Assembly: GCA_905250025.1 (NCBI GenBank)
Contig: CAJNOJ010000030.1
Coordinates: 552,101-616,100 of the forward strand
Length of the DNA: 64,000 bases
Direction: 5' to 3'
From: Adineta ricciae
Taxonomy: Eukaryota; Rotifera; Eurotatoria; Adinetida; Adinetidae
In this document: positions 15,736-62,274 of the stretch, piece by piece
Position numbering within the stretch: position 1 is the stretch's first letter
Layout of the letters: each line of letters begins with the position of its first letter
Position numbers and translations under genes: made by a program
The notes under the pieces: generated by a model
The model's database searches: none
What the model was told of the DNA's origin: nothing
The model's input: the letters and a program-made list of their open reading frames with translations, nothing else

Positions 15736-17513
15736 ATGCTGTCAACACAACTTATAAAATTTACAGAATCATATCCAGTTAATATGAATGATTCACGTGT
15801 CATTTTAAACGTGGGCGGAACACGGTTTGAAACGCAACGCGCAACATTAAAGAAATTACCAGCGACAAGATTGTCAAAATTAACTCCTCAATTATCATTT
15901 TATGATCCCGTTTTAAACGAATACTTTTTCGATCGGCATCCGGGCGCTTTTTCGCAAATACTCAACTATTATCGTACAGGAAGATTACATTATCCGACAA
16001 ATGTCTGTGGACCTTTGTTCGAAGATGAACTCTCCTTTTGGGGAATACAACGCGAAGAAGTTGAACCATGTTGCTGGTAAATTTATACTCTACCAACAAA
16101 AAATCGCATTTACAGATATTGTTCATGTCATTTTGGTATTCTTAGGATGACCTATACGAAGCATCGATCCACTCAAGAAACCTTGCAAGTATTGGATTCT
16201 TTAGAATTAGATACCGTTCGTTCCACGACGGATGACATTGTAAAAAAGTTCGGATGGGAAGATGATTTTGATTTGATTACTAGCGGTCATCTATCAAATC
16301 GAAAACGTCTGAAAGGTATTATCTGGCAACTATTCGAAGAACCAAGATCATCATTAGTATCTAAGGTAAGGGAAAACAACCATTTGAAGTTCTTTTTTGT
16401 TCGTACTCGATAATCACAGTGTCTATTATACCTGAATCACGGAAATAATCATTACTTGAGCGTTCAATGAGTAAAAAAGAAGCATCTAAAGTGGAATAAA
16501 CACTTCTATTACTTTTGTTCCGTAAATGCTCATTTATTTTATAATTTAAAGATCATTGCCGTTATATCGATGTTTTTCATTATACTTTCCATCGTTTCGT
16601 TTGTCCTTCGCACTTTGCCCGCATTTGAAATTGCTGAGTTTACCTTGGTGAATGTGACGATTGGATATAATCGAACTGAACAAGCGATTATGTCGAATAC
16701 ACAACAGCGAAAAATTATCTCGTCATTTGATACAATCGAATGGATTTGTAAGTCAAACGAGAAAAGAGAAAGAATATGCTTTTCTTCTTTGTGTGTTAGG
16801 TAATTCTTGGTTTATATTCGAAATCACGCTAAGATTTTTAGTTACACCATCGAAAAGAAGTTTTTGTTCATCTATTTTGAATTGGATTGGTAAGACAAGC
16901 GACGAAGGAAAGAACAGGCAACGAGACTTGGTTTTCTTTAGATTTTCTCGGTACATTCTGGTTTATTTTTACCTACATTCTCTACGAAACATTTTATTTT
17001 CACGGTTACAATGCAGCGCTCGATCTTGTCTCAACTATTCGCGTTGCCCGTATGTTCAAATTATGTAACCTTCATCCACGTCTAAAAGTGATCATCACAT
17101 CCATGTCGTATTCGTCGGGTGTTTTAAGTTTATTGATCTTTTTCTTCTTTCTCGCGGTCATGGTTGCCGGTGCATCATTGTACTACATCGAACGTTTAAG
17201 TAATACCAAAGATAATCAGCTAATATCCATCGTTGAAGGTGTATCATTGGCTATAAGCACGATCAGCACACTAGGTGCAGGCGAAGTTGTACCAAAATCG
17301 CTAAGCGGAATGATTTTCGGTGCAATAACTACGGTCGTTGGTGTCTTGATCATTGATTTGCCAATGCCAATCATCGTTGAAACATTTGCTAATTTCAATT
17401 CACATTTACAAACACGTCAGCAATTGCCCAAACAACGACGACGAGTTACGCCGGCGGTCATACCAAGGAAAATCAAACCATTAATACCACCTAATAGATA
17501 TGCTCGTTACTGA
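15736..17513 (+). CDS. voltage-gated potassium channel-like subunit with altered filter, 5 exons
   Basis: Exons 15736-16076, 16146-16365, 16552-16747, 16800-16889 and 16942-17513 give 472 residues. The N-terminus is a T1/BTB domain ([12 protein letters not shown]) with a perfect zinc motif HX5CX20CC (His85, Cys91, Cys112, Cys113), as in Kv2/Kv3/Kv4 but not Shaker channels. Six membrane segments follow. S1 is [20 protein letters not shown]2 carries the F-E-x-x-L-R pattern ([10 protein letters not shown]). S3 has Asp (NWIDFLGTF). S4 is poor in charge ([19 protein letters not shown]). The pore is strongly changed: the canonical TVGYGD reads TLGAGE at residues 392-397, and the Trp pair of the pore helix is missing. 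S6 has PMP instead of PVP. It could be a modifier subunit or a channel of altered selectivity. A start at the second ATG (15784) is also possible. Confidence 0.9.
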
Positions 17514-17756: not shown

Positions 17757-18028
17757 TTACCGAAGGCGACGTGCTTCACGTTCCGATTCGAGAAGAACTA
17801 GAACATCGTCGACACGTCTAAAAATTCAAATCAAAATCTAACTCAAGTGATTATAAAGAACAAAAGATATTCCTACACTGGTCCCTTGACGTTACGAATA
17901 ATCGATCGTTTGGATGTTGATGTGTCGATAATTTCGACACGAACTTGTGTACATTGGCCCTGACTGCCAGTGCGACCAAGAATTTTGACAACGCGTGCCA
18001 TAACACCGCCAGTTGTGTTTTTTTCCAT
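17757..18028 (-). CDS. RPS28: 40S ribosomal protein eS28 (RPS28), 2 exons
   Basis: Minus-strand exons 18028-17877 and 17817-17757 encode 70 residues, the usual length for eS28 (69 in human). The sequence shows the hallmark [20 protein letters not shown], then [11 protein letters not shown] and the C-terminal [12 protein letters not shown], nearly identical to animal eS28. It is a small OB-fold protein of the small ribosomal subunit near the mRNA exit region. The single intron is 59 bases. The N-terminal residues before ARVVK differ from vertebrates. About 120 bases upstream a CAAGATGGC element lies on the coding strand. The NudC gene starts 510 bases away in the opposite direction, so the two probably share a promoter region. 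Confidence 0.97.
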
Positions 18029-18537: not shown

Positions 18538-20120
18538 ATGTCTGACGAAGAGAAATACGACGCACTTTTAATGAACATTGCTTCCCAACATACGGGTGGC
18601 ATTCATGAAGTATTTGAATGATTTGAAAAGGGAATTACGAATTTTTTTTTATGTCTTCTCTAGTTACTCGATACATTGTTCGGCTTTTTCGCACGTAAAA
18701 CTGACTTATACACAAGTCCAAACGTTAATCAAAAGCCGGAAGAGTTGATTTTACAATCGTTTCGTAAATGGGAGAAAGTTGCGCTCGAAAAGCATAGAAA
18801 AGATAAAGCTGAACGAGATGAAGTACGTCAATTATCATTTATCATGTGAATGTTTCTGATTTGTTCCATAGGCTGATCGTGTTCGACGCGAGAAGATACG
18901 TCGCAAACGTGAAGAAGAAGAAAGTATCAAGAACGATCCGTCATCACGAATTGTCGAAGTTACTGATGAAGAAGCTGAACGAATTACACGAGAAAGTGCG
19001 AAAGCAAAAGTAAGTGATCGTGAATTAAATTTAATCGTTCTGCAACATTTTTACACTTTCTAGGCTCAAAAATTGGATTCTGATGAACAAGCTAAGGCAG
19101 AGAAGGACAATGTTGTCGAGCCATCAGATGACAATGAACAAAATAAAGAGGAGAAGGTAAAATAAGTTAAGAATCTAATTGTTTATGGATTATCAAAAGA
19201 CGAATTCTTACTCATTAGAAAGAAGATGAAGATGAAAATGAAGAAGATAAAGGTAAAGAAAAACCCAACTCTGGTAATGGATGGACAGGTCCAAACTATT
19301 CCTGGACACAAACACTCGAAGAGATTGATGTAAGTCGTGTTTTGTTTTTCAGTTATCATTTGTTCTAACTATGTGGCTTTATTCGAATTAGTTGCGCGTT
19401 CCAATTAACCTCAATGTTCGTGTTAAATCGAAAGATGTCATCGTCAAATTCGAACGCAAGGTATGCAGGTTCATTTTTTGTTGACAATAGTTATAGGAAC
19501 GATCTATTTAGCATTTAACCGTCGGTCTTCGTGGTCACCCACCAATTATTGATGGTGAAACATTTGCCGAATTGAAAAAAGAAGACTCTGTTTGGACATT
19601 GGATGATGGAAAACTACTACATATTGTTATCGAAAAAGTATTGTCCTTTACTCTGACGGTTCGGTTTACATTCTATATATATATATATATATATATAGGT
19701 TAATAAAATGGAATGGTGGAGTCGAATTGTCAAATCGGACCCGGAAATTAACACGCGTAAAGTTCAACCTGAAAACTCGAAGGTAAGACAATTTCACAAA
19801 TGGTTCGTTAATAATGCGCGTTTTAATTTAGTTATCTGATTTGGATGGTGAAACACGTGGTATGGTAGAGAAAATGATGTACGATCAACATCGACGTGAA
19901 GCTGGTTTACCTACTTCTGATGAACAAAAGAAACAAGATATGCTTCAAAAGTAAACCATTCTTTTTCAGTTTATAAATCATAGGTTTGTATTTTGCGATC
20001 GAATTAGATTTATGAGCGCCCATCCGGAAATGGATTTTAGTAAATGCAAGTAAGTCTAGTGAATAGAGATTCTGATAACATGTTTATCTACTGATTTATT
20101 TTACAATTAGATTCAATTGA
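18538..20120 (+). CDS. NUDC: nuclear distribution protein NudC, 11 exons
   Basis: Exons: 18538-18609, 18664-18822, 18872-19009, 19064-19156, 19219-19329, 19392-19460, 19512-19637, 19699-19782, 19832-19950, 20008-20049, 20111-20120; 340 residues (human NudC 331). The N-terminal part has the family's [17 protein letters not shown] segment. A long charged helix follows (roughly residues 65-125, ending in acidic repeats), then the CS/p23 domain starting at [18 protein letters not shown], with [16 protein letters not shown]. The C-terminal tail ends [18 protein letters not shown], almost as in vertebrates. NudC is a cochaperone that works with Hsp90 and the LIS1/dynein machinery. The last exon encodes only the final three residues. 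Introns are mostly about 50-60 bases; the seventh carries an AT dinucleotide tract. Confidence 0.97.
19673..19697. repeat. AT dinucleotide microsatellite in NudC intron 7
   Basis: About a dozen tandem TA units directly before the 3' splice site of the seventh NudC intron; the repeat runs into the AG. Confidence 0.9.
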
Positions 20121-43703: not shown

Positions 43704-44812
43704 TTATTTCCTGGAATGAATAAATGTAGAGAGAATGATAGATTGCTTTCGAATTTTGCTGGGGAACTTACCATTTGCGTGGTGGTGGAGTAGCAACTTC
43801 ACCGGCGTCTTCTAGGAAGACTGGATCATTTCCGCGTCGTGATTGATCACCAGATACACCTTTTGTTTGTGGAAGAGCGTCTTTAACGGTATCACGAACA
43901 GATTTAGCCGCATCTTCGACTTGCTCTTTAGCATGAGTGAGTGATTTTTTCACTTGTTTTGGATCGGGCAATGCATCGCGAACGGTGTGAACAGCATCTT
44001 TAACCTAAGACGCAACGTTATGTATTTTTCCTCTACGAATAAACAAGAAATACCTGATCAGCGGCGTGAGTGACAGCACCTTTAACTTTTTTATATTCGG
44101 GCAGTTTATCATAAGCATCATTGATAGCATCTTTAGCTTGTTCAGAAGCCTTTTGAATTTGTTTTTGATCTGGTAATTTGTTATAGGCAGCATTGGCAGC
44201 ATCTTTAACTTGTTCACCTGCTTTGCGGATTTGTTCCTTATCAGGTAAACGATCAGTGACACCTGACAAGTCCGGCATTTTTTCGGATATGATAGTTGTC
44301 AATTTCTTGTGACGACCGAACACAGGGTCGATGATTTTATCGAGTCCAGCTAAAATTGTTGAACTCAATGGAATCGTAGATTCAACTTTGCGACGGAATG
44401 GACCATTGTCATATTCAGCATAGACAAGCGTAACACCGAGACCGAGTGCGAGGCCATAGACAACTGCCTTGACTGTACCACCGCTGCCTCCAGCACTAGC
44501 GCCAGCCGACGAGGATGAAGACGAGGATGTGACGGGTCTCGATGTTGGTGGTGGTGTTGTGGTCGTTTTCTGCGGATTATTTGTTCGGTCGATAGGTCCA
44601 TTCGATGATGGATTTGTGGATGCTGTTTGTGATTTGCTAGCCGATGGTGGATTGGTAGTTTTAGCTTGAGTTGAGGTTGAACCTGGCGTCGATTTCGCCG
44701 AAGCAGTGGTAGCTGAACCTGACGAACTAGAGGATTGCTGAAATCTCTTGGCGACAAGAGTTAAATTTCGTGCTGCTGGTTGAGCGCGAGAGGGATTTAT
44801 TATGCGGAGCAT
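43704..44812 (-). CDS. MIC60-like mitochondrial membrane protein with LEA-like repeats, 3 exons
   Basis: Minus-strand exons 44812-44054, 44004-43772 and a 7-base last exon 43710-43704 give 332 residues. The first 24 residues (LRIINPSRAQPAARNLTLVA) form a basic mitochondrial presequence. A disordered Ser/Thr/Pro/Gly region (25-112) leads to a membrane helix at 114-132, followed by YAEYDNGPFRRKVESTIPLS. That matches the N-terminal part of MIC60/mitofilin just after its membrane helix. The long coiled coil and C-terminal mitofilin domain of MIC60 are missing. Instead, residues 189-297 hold tandem amphipathic repeats, each starting LPD/LPE/LPQ and rich in Lys, Gln, Asp and Ala (EQVKDAANAAYNK, EQAKDAINDAYDK). 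In composition they resemble group 3 LEA proteins. It probably sits in the inner membrane facing the intermembrane space. An in-frame ATG at 44857 would lengthen the presequence by 15. Confidence 0.75.
43864..44248 (-). repeat. LPD-headed amphipathic repeats in the MIC60-like protein
   Basis: Repeat heads LPD/LPE/LPQ start at residues 189, 213, 237, 265 and 297, a spacing of 24, 24, 28 and 32. Each unit carries a Q/K-I/V-x-K-A-x-E-Q-x-K-D-A core. The longer spacings come from added Lys/Ala-rich turns. The intron at 44005-44053 falls inside the third unit. Confidence 0.8.
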
Positions 44813-45297: not shown

Positions 45298-46538
45298 CTA
45301 TTGTTCTATATGAAGATTTTCACTGGTATTATTCAGTTTGTTTCCAATAATTTGTAATTGATGTAAAATTTGGTTGATATCTCTTCTCAATTGGATATCA
45401 TAGTCCTGGGGAGTACCATATCGATGATGTTGAAATTCCCGACAAAGTCGGGCACAGTGAAGATACGCAATAACTTGCTTGCACCTCTCTTTTTGATTAT
45501 CTTTACTACGTATTGACCGAATTCGTTTGTTGACATGCTGTAAACGCCACCATGCTAGGATAAATCGCGCTGCTGGTCCATATAATTGTTTACGCGCGTG
45601 ACGTTTTTCATCGACGGATGTTAAACCTGCAGAAATAATTCCAGCTGGAAGTGTCCAAAGAACGACACCTATACAGCACAATGTTGCTGTTAGGAGTCGA
45701 CCTACAAGTAAATAAGGCAAAGTATTAAACTAATCGAAGGAAAATGGACATCACCAATCAATGTCTGAGGCCAAGTATCACCATAACCAATCTACATATA
45801 GGAAAAGAAACAAGTAATGATTAGATTTGCATTCATGTTTACCGTCGCCATTGAATTGATGGTAAACCATAATGAATCGGTGTATGTTTGAAAAAAATAT
45901 AGATCATTGGTTTTAATGGATCTCTCAACAATCCAAAGAAGATAAGCTGTTGGTAACATAAGGAGAAAGCACATGTAAACCGTGGCTAGAAGAACTCGAC
46001 GGTATTGCCGGACGATCTTCCAAATCAACGGAATCGATCCAATGTATCGATCCAACGGAATAAACCGAAACAATTGAAGGAAACGTAGTGCATGTAGAAA
46101 AAGAGCATGCGAGTGGTAAAACTTCGCAAAATTCCACAGAAAAACGATCCCGTAACACACTAACAGAAGAAAATCGAAGATCAAATAATGTTCCAAGAAG
46201 AATCGACGTTTGCCTTGCATCCCACAATAACGTTCTTTGGCATTGGATGCATAAATTCGAAGAATAAATTCAATTAAACAATAGACAAAAATGCTCAATT
46301 CAATGTAGAACAATACCGGTACACTTGCCGTACGATGTTCATCGTAAGTTGTTAATGTACCGACATATGTAGCAAATGTAAAGACGAAAAAGAGAACATA
46401 AGCATAAATGGGTGTTTGTTCAAATAATCGATATAGAAATAGTGAGAATTTCGGTGCATGATGATGACGATGTTGATATGGTTTTTGACGATTATGGTCC
46501 AGTTTTGATGGTAAGAAGATTTCTGACTCGACCTGCAT
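45298..46538 (-). CDS. KCNQ-like voltage-gated potassium channel, 3 exons
   Basis: Minus-strand exons 46538-45843, 45791-45755 and 45701-45298 give 378 residues. There is no T1 domain. Six membrane segments are seen, with S1 YAYVLFFVFTFATYVGTL, S2 IELSIFVYCLIEFILRIYAS and S4 LHALRFLQLFRFIPLDRYIG. The last follows the KCNQ S4 pattern (SLRFLQILRMVRMDRRGG) but with fewer arginines. The selectivity filter is canonical, ATIGYGD (residues 231-237), followed by TWPQTLIGR as in KCNQ (TYPQTWIGK), and S6 contains LPAGIISAGL. A cytosolic helix rich in Arg, probably the calmodulin-binding helix A (FILAWWRLQHVNKRI), follows, then a short tail. It is much shorter than KCNQ proteins (600-900), with the helix C/D assembly region reduced. 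The filter is interrupted by an intron right after its first Thr. Confidence 0.88.
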
Positions 46539-59691: not shown

Positions 59692-60996
59692 ATGGGAAAC
59701 CGAGTAAATCGTCGTCAACAACCAGGTCTTTCAGGATATGGTCAAGCCTATGATCCTAATTACGGAATGGACTATTATGGTGGAGCTTACGATCCAGTAT
59801 CTTGTAAGTATTGATATGATTTCGTATTCATTCGTAGACATCGAGTACGAACGTGAATGCATTGCTCTTTCAGATGGTGGTGCTTACCCAACTGGTGGTG
59901 CCTATCCAACTGGAGGCGGCTTTCCAACTGGAGGGTACGGAACAGGATACGTTACCACAGCCGTCGTTCCTCGACAGCCTATCGGTCCTCCACTCGGTAT
60001 GAGTGGTTCAAGTGCTCTCGGCGGCTATGGTTTAGGTGGTCTCGGAGGTGGCTTGGGAGGCGGCCTTCCACCTAAAATTCGTGTCATCTTCATCCCACAA
60101 GGTGGTGCCGGTGCTGCTGGAGGGTAATTTCATTGAATTTACGATGATTCAAGTCATGTACTTTTCTTACCTCGATGTATAGATGTGCTCCATCGTGTCC
60201 AATGCCAATGCCACAAATGCCAATGCCACAAATGCCAATGCCTATGCCAATGCCTCAACCAATGTGTCCACCCCCCATGCCAATGCCTCAACCAATGTGT
60301 CCACCTCCAATGCCAATGCCAATGCCTATGCCAATGCCAATGCCCCAACCAGCGTGTCCACCTCCAATGCCAATGCCTATGCCAATGCCAATGCCAATGC
60401 CCCAACCAGCGTGTCCGCCTCCAATGCCAATGCCTATGCCAATGCCAATGCCAATGCCCCAACCAATGTGTCCACCTCCAATGCCAATGCCAATGCCAAT
60501 GCCTCAAATGCCCATGCCTCAACCAATGTGCCCACCCCCTATGCCAATGCCAATGCCACAAATGCCCATGCCTCAACCAATGTGCCCACCTCCAATGCCA
60601 ATGCCAATGCCACAAATGCCAATGCCAATGCCAATGCCAATGCCAATGCAACAACCTATGTGTCCACCAATGGGCGGTGGTATGTTCACAGCTGAATTAT
60701 AATTATGTTTTGCTATTGTGAAATTTGCTTCTTTCTATGAAAACTATAGGTCTCGCCAGCTATGGTGGTGGTATGCCAATGGGTGGTATGCCAATGGGCG
60801 GTATGCCAATGGGCGGTATGCCGATGGGCGGTATGCCAATGGGTGGCGGTATGCCATTCGGTGGCGCTGTCGGTGGATTTAGTGGCGGTAAGTTTTTCTG
60901 TTTTCTCTTTTTGACAAATAAATGTTTCGTCATTCTCAATTTTTTGTAGGTTATGGTAGTGCTTTACCAATGTTGCGTTGTTCACAATTTTCATAG
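59692..60996 (+). CDS. Met/Pro/Gly-rich low-complexity protein, 5 exons
   Basis: Exons 59692-59803, 59874-60123, 60183-60679, 60750-60887 and 60950-60996 give 347 residues. It starts MGNRVNRRQQPGLSGYGQAY; a Gly after Met suggests possible N-myristoylation. A Tyr/Gly/Pro region (GGAYPTGGAYPTGG) comes next, then a short hydrophobic strand (PPKIRVIFIPQG). Exon 3 is almost only Met-Pro dipeptides broken by CPPP blocks (MPQPMCPPPMPMPMP), about 165 residues. Exon 4 is a GGMPM repeat, and the last exon ends YGSALPMLRCSQFS. No classical signal peptide is visible. I do not recognise the family. Frame is kept across all introns, so despite the repeats it behaves as a gene. A structural or condensate-forming role is possible but unproven. 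Confidence 0.75.
60196..60657 (+). repeat. hexanucleotide ATGCCA/CCAATG array encoding Met-Pro
   Basis: Near-perfect tandem units of six bases, in blocks separated by a CAACCAATGTGTCCACC-type spacer that recurs about nine times. Block copies of roughly 60 bases are themselves repeated, giving a two-level repeat. Confidence 0.92.
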
Positions 60997-61084
60997 ACGC
61001 ACTATTGAAGTAAAATAAATTTGACAACGATACGGTGACGGCGACAAGTACAACATTGAGACGAGTCGTATTACATTGAAATCA

Positions 61085-62274
61085 ATGGTACGTGACTGAC
61101 TATTTGATTTGTGAATGATTTGAGGGTGGCGGTATCGGTGGTTTGGCTTCCTACGGAGGTGCTGCTGGTGCTGGTGAGTTTTGTCATTGACTCAATGAAT
61201 TGATTATTCAGCCGTGTTAATTCTTTTCGAACCATAGGTTATGGTACCGGATTCACTGGCATTCCATCAATGAGCGGTTTCGGCGCTCCACAAATGCCCG
61301 GTTTTGGTGCTCCACAAATGCCCGGCTTCGGTGCTCCACAAATGCCAGGCTTTGGTGCTCCACAAATGCCAGCTTTCGGCGCTCCACAAATGCCAGGCTT
61401 CGGTGCTCCACAAATGCCAGGCTTCGGTGCTCCACAAATGCCAGGTTATGGTGCTCCACAAGCCGGTGGATTCCCACCAGGATGTGACTTCGGTATGTAT
61501 TGATATTCTAAGATGTTTTTTTTATTTCTGATGAAATCTTGCAAAAAAGCGTATTCTTGTTTTTCTACAACAATTTCCTCTATTATAGGCGGCCAAGCTC
61601 CACCAATGGGTATGATGCGCTCATTACAAGCTGTCGGTGCACCATTGATGCAGCCATACCAACAAATGCAAGCTGCACCACCACCACCACAATTTCCAGC
61701 ACCTATTGCCCCAGGTCCACAATCATGTAAGGATTTATGCTCTCGTTGAAGCATGATGTACGATAATGTGTGTCAATTCGTCGTTCTAGATCCAGTTCCT
61801 CAACCATATCCTCACCCATACCCAGTGCCTGTACCAGTTCCTCAACCAATCGGTCAACAACCATCATTCCAAGCACCACCACCAAGCTTCCCACCTCCAC
61901 CTAGCTTCGGACCAGCACCAAGCTTTTCACCACCACCTCCACCACCACCACCACCAAGTTTCGTTCCACCACCAAACTTTGCTCCTCCTCCACCAAGCTT
62001 TGCTCCACCATCTAACTACGCTCCACCTCCACCAGCTCCACTACCGCCTCCACCCCCGCAACAACCCTATTCACCTCCTCCGCCACCACCACCAAGTTTC
62101 CAACAATCCGGTCCTAGCTTCGGTCAATCTGATCACTTCCACGCACCACCACCTCCACCACCATCATTCCCACCTCCACCTCAACATCAATACGGTGGAT
62201 TTCAACCACCTCCAAGTGGTGCCCCAGGTGGCAGTGGCCGCATGATTTGCTGTTGCTTTCCAGCACCTAACTAA
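61085..62274 (+). CDS. Gly/Pro-rich repeat protein with FGAPQMPG units, 5 exons
   Basis: Exons 61085-61087 (only the ATG), 61125-61173, 61238-61492, 61589-61726 and 61790-62274 give 309 residues. After GGGIGGLASYGGAAGAGYG come eight copies of an 8-residue unit FGAPQMPG. A segment with GGQAPPMGMMRSLQAVGAPL follows, then a Pro-Val run (PVPQPYPHPYPVPVPVPQP). The last 150 residues are dominated by PPPPPSF-like motifs, ending GRMICCCFPAPN. The C-terminal CCC could be palmitoylated. No catalytic domain is seen. The predicted first intron is just 37 bases, so the start is the weakest part. Alternatively these exons may be the 3' half of the upstream gene, but the phase at 60887 does not fit 61125. 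The GLASYGG sequence also occurs in exon 4 of that gene, which supports duplication. Confidence 0.62.
61279..61461 (+). repeat. 24-base tandem repeat encoding FGAPQMPG
   Basis: Eight in-frame copies, seven with Phe and the last with Tyr; Pro-Gly at the unit end is Pro-Ala in the fourth. Third-codon-position changes between copies show it is not a brand-new expansion. Confidence 0.92.

Follow-up and report, generated by a model that had tools for sequence, protein, structure and literature searches.

A Shaw-type Kv gene of the rotifer Adineta ricciae with TLGAGE at the selectivity filter, a probable regulatory subunit

Few features of Kv channels are as conserved as the GYG selectivity filter and the aromatic cuff, which is made of two pore-helix tryptophans and the filter tyrosine. 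Passages of a survey of Kv-like and CNBD channels describe strong departures from GYG as rare and as found in single channels rather than clades, with the exception of metazoan CNG channels (PMC7576140). According to passages on the structures of Shaker and of the Kv1.2/2.1 chimera, W434 bonds D447 within the same subunit, and Y445 is bonded by W435 and T439 from the adjacent subunit (PMC9271579). The K+ ion is coordinated by the backbone carbonyl of the filter Tyr (PMC3852034, Figure 1 legend). Silent (regulatory) Shaw subunits exist in Nematostella (PMC9989356, section 7), and non-conservative changes of the S6 gate are reported for 43 of 44 regulatory subunits from Nematostella and mouse (Pisupati 2018, as cited in PMC9989356).

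The effect of changing the residues that support the filter is described for Shaker in several passages of one study (PMC3852034). Only gating current is seen with Y445A homotetramers; W435A yields no current of either kind, ionic or gating, and the current of D447E decays rapidly and completely. At position 434, natural residues other than Trp hasten slow inactivation. Replacement of W435 by Tyr or Phe leaves inactivation wild-type-like and the authors exclude a W435 hydrogen bond in slow inactivation, so that this position seems to require an aromatic residue and not a bond. K+ selectivity is lost in T441V, and T441S has recordable currents. When Y445A is carried by the first of four linked subunits, a component of ~50 ms is found together with a slow wild-type-like one, and after correction for gating charge the current has inactivated almost entirely by about 200 ms (PMC3852034). 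In the corresponding passages of a Kv7.3 study, T439V or Y445F in a single subunit causes a dramatic loss of function, ascribed to the inter-subunit bond, and W434F in a single subunit is better tolerated (PMC7733659). A single D447E or W434F subunit is milder than Y445A (PMC7733659, PMC3852034).

The window, which is the whole stretch of 64,000 nucleotides of Adineta ricciae DNA that was analysed, carries a Kv gene with a changed filter. Its model, built from sequence alone, comprises:

15736-17513, plus strand: TLGAGE-bearing Kv gene, five exons, 1419-base frame, 472 residues
15736-16076, plus strand: exon 1, N-terminus and most of T1 (BTB_2), with the zinc site H85-X5-C91-X20-C112-C113
16146-16365, plus strand: exon 2, end of T1 (WMTY), linker and approach to S1
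16552-16747, plus strand: exon 3, S1, the S1-S2 loop with the N-glycosylation sequons N221 and N227, and start of S2
16800-16889, plus strand: exon 4, S2 with the charge-transfer Phe and Glu, and start of S3
16942-17513, plus strand: exon 5, S3 to S6, the C-terminus QQLPKQRRR and the stop codon
17548-17553, plus strand: AATAAA, a possible polyadenylation signal that starts 35 bases past the stop codon

The four introns are all of GT-AG type and the frame is open for 472 codons, bearing out the intact frame over five exons of the preliminary description. No mark of a pseudogene (stop, frameshift or broken splice site) was found across these codons and introns. The domains identified by profile search are BTB_2, Ion_trans and Ion_trans_2, with a Pfam match of T1 to PF02214 at E 7.1e-29. 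Convergent with the Kv gene and immediately beyond its 3' end, a stretch coding for ribosomal protein S28e lies on the minus strand (~17873-18028; Pfam E 3.8e-18). Several short open stretches are found at 18540-20050 of the plus strand, which appear to resemble a NudC-type protein.

By its T1 domain, the predicted protein is a Shaw (Kv3) subunit. T1 is identical at 82 of 111 positions (74%) to the Shaw T1 of 3kvt, from Aplysia, at 65 of 111 (59%) to Kv3.1 and at 39 of 92 to the Kv1.2/2.1 chimera. Taken alone it scores 199.1 bits against 3kvt and 152.9 bits against Kv3.1, and the whole protein scores 90, 87 and 70 bits against the isolated T1 chains of Kv4.3, Kv2.1 and Kv1.1, respectively. The zinc motif HX5CX20CC, already described as perfect, is complete (H85, C91, C112 and C113) with WMTY in place after it. 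Among the best 60 of 78 matches of the whole protein, the closest solved relatives are Kv3.1 structures (E 1.2e-83) and no invertebrate Shaw pore is found. For the transmembrane part taken alone, the Kv1.2/2.1 chimera gives a better score (129.8 bits) than Kv3.1 (106.7 bits), with no invertebrate Shaw pore among the 51 matches of that part, and the Shaw assignment is therefore based on T1 and on the C-terminal QQLPKQRRR tail. We read the higher transmembrane score as an eroded subfamily signal.

The changes of pore helix, filter and gate lie in exon 5:

17244-17249, plus strand: Ser384-Leu385 in the pore helix, replacing the Trp pair (Shaker W434, W435)
17268-17285, plus strand: selectivity filter TLGAGE, residues 392-397 (Y445A and D447E in Shaker numbering)
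17355-17369, plus strand: S6 gate DLPMP, with Asp421 just before PMP and PxP kept

Positions 17268-17285 read ACACTAGGTGCAGGCGAA, which codes in frame for Thr-Leu-Gly-Ala-Gly-Glu. The TxG(Y/F)GD filter of K+-conducting Kv alpha subunits is absent, as is the aromatic cuff, whose positions are occupied by Ser384, Leu385 and Ala395. In the HMMER alignment the changes correspond to W434S, W435L, Y445A and D447E, with T439, T442, G444 and G446 retained and Ser at the position of T441. Asp421 corresponds to A471 of Shaker. The S6 Gly and PxP (PMP) are retained. The preliminary description had TLGAGE in place of TVGYGD, Ala for the filter Tyr, Glu for the Asp, a lost Trp pair and a PxP-like S6 hinge (PMP), all of which are found in the codons of exon 5. 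A sequencing error behind TLGAGE is rejected, and so are a few read errors or chance, because the four positions, which bond mutually in Kv structures, are at least 3 + 1 + 2 + 1 = 7 in-frame nucleotide changes away from Tyr, Asp, Trp and Trp codons. The Tyr side chain is said, with reference to Heginbotham in 1994, not to be essential for selectivity.

The passages on Shaker mutants indicate that each of the four changed positions matters in Shaker; Y445A and D447E are exactly the substitutions described there, and W434S and W435L are not among the mutants of these passages. The loss of the Tyr carbonyl, which the preliminary description had given as the reason for altered function, does not apply since the coordinating carbonyl belongs to the backbone and Ala has one too. 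By analogy with these channels, the TLGAGE subunit has lost the network of side-chain hydrogen bonds (W434-D447, T439-Y445 and W435-Y445) by which the filter is held. The kept backbone carbonyl, together with both filter glycines, T439, T442 and the charge conserved by Glu at Asp447, would suit a homomeric channel whose permeation is altered and less selective for K+. Such a channel is nevertheless very improbable, given that in the Shaker passages Y445A removes the ionic current and puts no non-selective current in its place, and W435A carries no current (PMC3852034). The non-selective channel proposed at first is thus the weakest option of that description, the loss of selectivity having come from T441V, a position held here by Ser.

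Conservation along the protein differs from that of a control pair. Identity of the TLGAGE protein to Kv3.1 is 36% in S5-S6 (35/98), 29% in the pore loop (9/31) and 31% in the S4 region, in an alignment of four rows of which one covers T1 only. Between Kv3.1 and the Kv1.2/2.1 chimera the same regions reach 56% (53/95), 61% (19/31) and 59%, and T1 37% (34/92); the pore identity of this control is if anything too low, because its chain 7siz is a chimera of two channels and has one of the two pore-helix Trp replaced by Phe. The T1 of the TLGAGE protein is 74% identical to 3kvt, above the 62% of Kv3.1. T1 is kept and the pore has diverged, the reverse of the control pair, which suggests that assembly was kept and permeation released; neutral mutation would not spare T1.

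The low identities of S5-S6 and of the S4 region would also be expected of a copy that became non-functional recently, with a stop codon or frameshift yet to come, and animals with several gene copies can drop one. This reading is unlikely in view of the high T1 identity and of the intact zinc site, sequons and splice sites. When neutral decay of the coding sequence as it stands is simulated by substitutions alone, with no insertions or deletions, 285 of 1000 copies are stop-free at 0.02 substitutions per site, 51 of 1000 at 0.05, 4 of 1000 at 0.1 and none of 1000 at any of 0.15, 0.2, 0.3 and 0.5. The simulation argues against long neutral decay, not against recent loss, for which the stop-free copies at 0.02 and 0.05 leave room. 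The earlier claim that an intact frame contradicts a decaying pseudogene stands for long decay and fails for recent loss.

Searches of the window by tblastn with the TLGAGE protein, Kv3.1, the Kv1.2/2.1 chimera and the Shaw T1 identified no second Kv copy; they match the TLGAGE gene, a KCNQ-like gene (E 0.002) and otherwise sequences at chance level (E of at least 0.58). An alternative exon with a normal filter was not found in the window by pattern scans and tblastn. Relatives were looked for in viral contigs, with no pattern match, and in prokaryote contigs, with 13 pattern matches of which none is related by tblastn; an animal gene is hardly expected in either. A six-frame scan of the window with the hexamer pattern [ST][VILMAT]G[YFLA]G[DENS] has a single match, the TLGAGE site. 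The KCNQ-like filter is missed because an intron splits it, and it is recovered among chance matches by a looser filter-pattern scan. This second channel gene is organized as follows:

46538 to about 45298, minus strand: KCNQ-like gene, 378 residues, TIGYGD filter
46538-45843, minus strand: exon 1
45791-45755, minus strand: exon 2
45701 to about 45298, minus strand: exon 3

The intron separates Thr from IGYGD, exon 1 ending at 45843 and exon 2 starting at 45791. The best PDB match of the gene is KCNQ2 (E 9.2e-37). Its pore helix reads LWF versus LWW in KCNQ2, and MAT versus LTT precedes IGYGD, which indicates that the KCNQ-like channel has diverged too. It lies about 28.5 kb from the TLGAGE gene, in agreement with the KCNQ-like channel with TIGYGD reported 28 kb away, and its filter indicates that the change is not general to every K+ channel in the window. 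Note that the minus strand carries an imperfect 72-base repeat (1.9 copies) at 44111-44248, within apparently coding sequence of that strand. Dense tandem repeats with units of 15, 24, 33 and 57 bases, among others, occupy 60200-62030; they feature a GFGAPQMP peptide and apparently encode a low-complexity protein.

The voltage sensor of the TLGAGE subunit is modified in S4:

17022-17069, plus strand: S4 charges, Asp310 (R1), Ser313 (R2), Arg316 (R3), Arg319 (R4), Lys322 (K5) and Asn325 (R6), by alignment to Kv3.1

The sequence Asp, Ser, Arg, Arg, Lys, Asn at R1-R6 lacks the four to five regularly spaced positive charges of an S4: R3, R4 and K5 are kept and R1, R2 and R6 replaced, as anticipated when S4 was described as poor in basic residues. 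The alignment shows S2 Glu, Phe and Glu and S3 Asp retained. These residues pair with S4 charges. The sequons N221 and N227 of the S1-S2 loop have counterparts in the loop of Kv3.1, and their conservation, with that of the charge-transfer residues, suggests a membrane-inserted, folded voltage sensor. The AlphaFold2 model from the single sequence (mean pLDDT 38.5, pTM 0.22) is too poor for structural claims. A non-conducting role of another kind, such as a T1-bearing scaffold or a trafficking partner that never reaches the surface within a channel, would account for T1 being the best-conserved part; the sequons and charge-transfer residues that are kept speak against it and make it extremely improbable.

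The changes in S4 and in the gate point to altered gating, which would be in line with a modifier whose heteromers conduct steadily with a shift of voltage dependence, as in vertebrate KvS or Kv3.1 T399M. Passages on the latter describe a subunit that is dead alone and whose mixed channels are shifted by -23.4 mV without marked current loss (PMC13296753). This is a counter-example to pure suppression and a gating-shift role stays a rival for that reason. It is a distinctly unlikely one, because loss of Tyr445 in one Shaker subunit leads to near-complete inactivation (PMC3852034) and three further filter-supporting residues are lost here.

The reading favoured here, with a rough probability of 0.55, is that the gene codes for a regulatory (electrically silent) Shaw subunit, which would be non-conducting alone and would suppress or rapidly inactivate normal Shaw partners. 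A non-conservative change of the S6 gate, by which regulatory subunits are recognized in passages of PMC9989356, is present as Asp421 before PMP. We infer that this position counts within the published gate window, and the predicted gate Asp fits the regulatory-subunit pattern. The conserved T1 and its zinc site would allow assembly with a normal Shaw alpha subunit. A filter quadrant devoid of the aromatic cuff and of the Asp anchor would, from Shaker mutagenesis, render the homotetramer non-conducting, while a heteromer with one copy would remain closed or inactivate in tens of milliseconds. We propose that, with the Tyr hydroxyl gone, the hydrogen bond to the adjacent subunit is broken too, and that one copy could thereby inactivate the whole heterotetramer. 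The subunit would be a built-in brake by which Shaw current is suppressed or made transient, and the thinned S4 and the gate Asp would contribute a gating shift. The functional basis of this analogy is single Shaker mutations and not the four-change combination in a Shaw channel. The initial suggestion of a subunit that is non-conducting alone or modifies other Kv subunits thus appears probable. A broader proposal, put forward tentatively and at less than even odds, is that a natural class of Shaw subunits arose through dismantling of the filter scaffold, that the number of copies per tetramer sets the inactivation rate or off-state of Shaw channels, which would make it a genetically encoded dominant-negative or inactivation-timer subunit, and that selection acts chiefly on T1 assembly.

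If the regulatory reading is true, evolution exploits the instability of the filter in heteromers for control, at the positions of the Shaker inactivation timer. With such a gene one could readily test what number of damaged quadrants a K+ filter can bear. Should the gene be only a decaying copy, it would show that T1 can outlast the pore. Among the matches listed from the open-access PMC literature, none describes a silent Shaw subunit with a broken filter, and no open-access PMC paper combines regulatory subunits and Shaw, Nematostella and the selectivity filter. Among the papers listed there for rotifers or bdelloids and potassium channels, none is on rotifer Kv channels as judged from its title or the opening of its abstract; the nearest rotifer item is on a glutamate receptor with a K+ filter (PMC12332018).

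The TLGAGE subunit shares with Shaw/Kv3 alpha subunits (3kvt; Kv3.1, 7phh) the HX5CX20CC T1, WMTY, six transmembrane segments, PxP and the basic QxLPK C-terminus. Those subunits have TLGYGD and the Trp pair, whereas the TLGAGE subunit is without the Trp pair and without the two outer S4 Arg, and has an Asp in the S6 gate. CNG channels conduct non-selectively and are not known to carry a T1. The metazoan ones belong to the same superfamily and have a TIGE-type filter, a deviation from GYG that occurs in nature; they are the only such clade in the passages of the survey of Kv-like and CNBD channels (PMC7576140). Unlike them, the TLGAGE subunit has no predicted sign of non-selective conduction. 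The laboratory mutants of Shaker Y445A, W434F, D447E and W435A are at the same positions, and Y445A and D447E are the same substitutions; in the passages that describe them they were made singly, while here a natural gene from a different subfamily combines four changes. Nematostella regulatory Shaw subunits and vertebrate KvS (Kv5, 6, 8, 9) have in common with the TLGAGE subunit an altered S6 gate and the expectation of an alpha partner (PMC9989356, PMC3519636). The passages on these subunits describe changes of the gate and none of the filter, whereas in the TLGAGE subunit the filter itself is dismantled.
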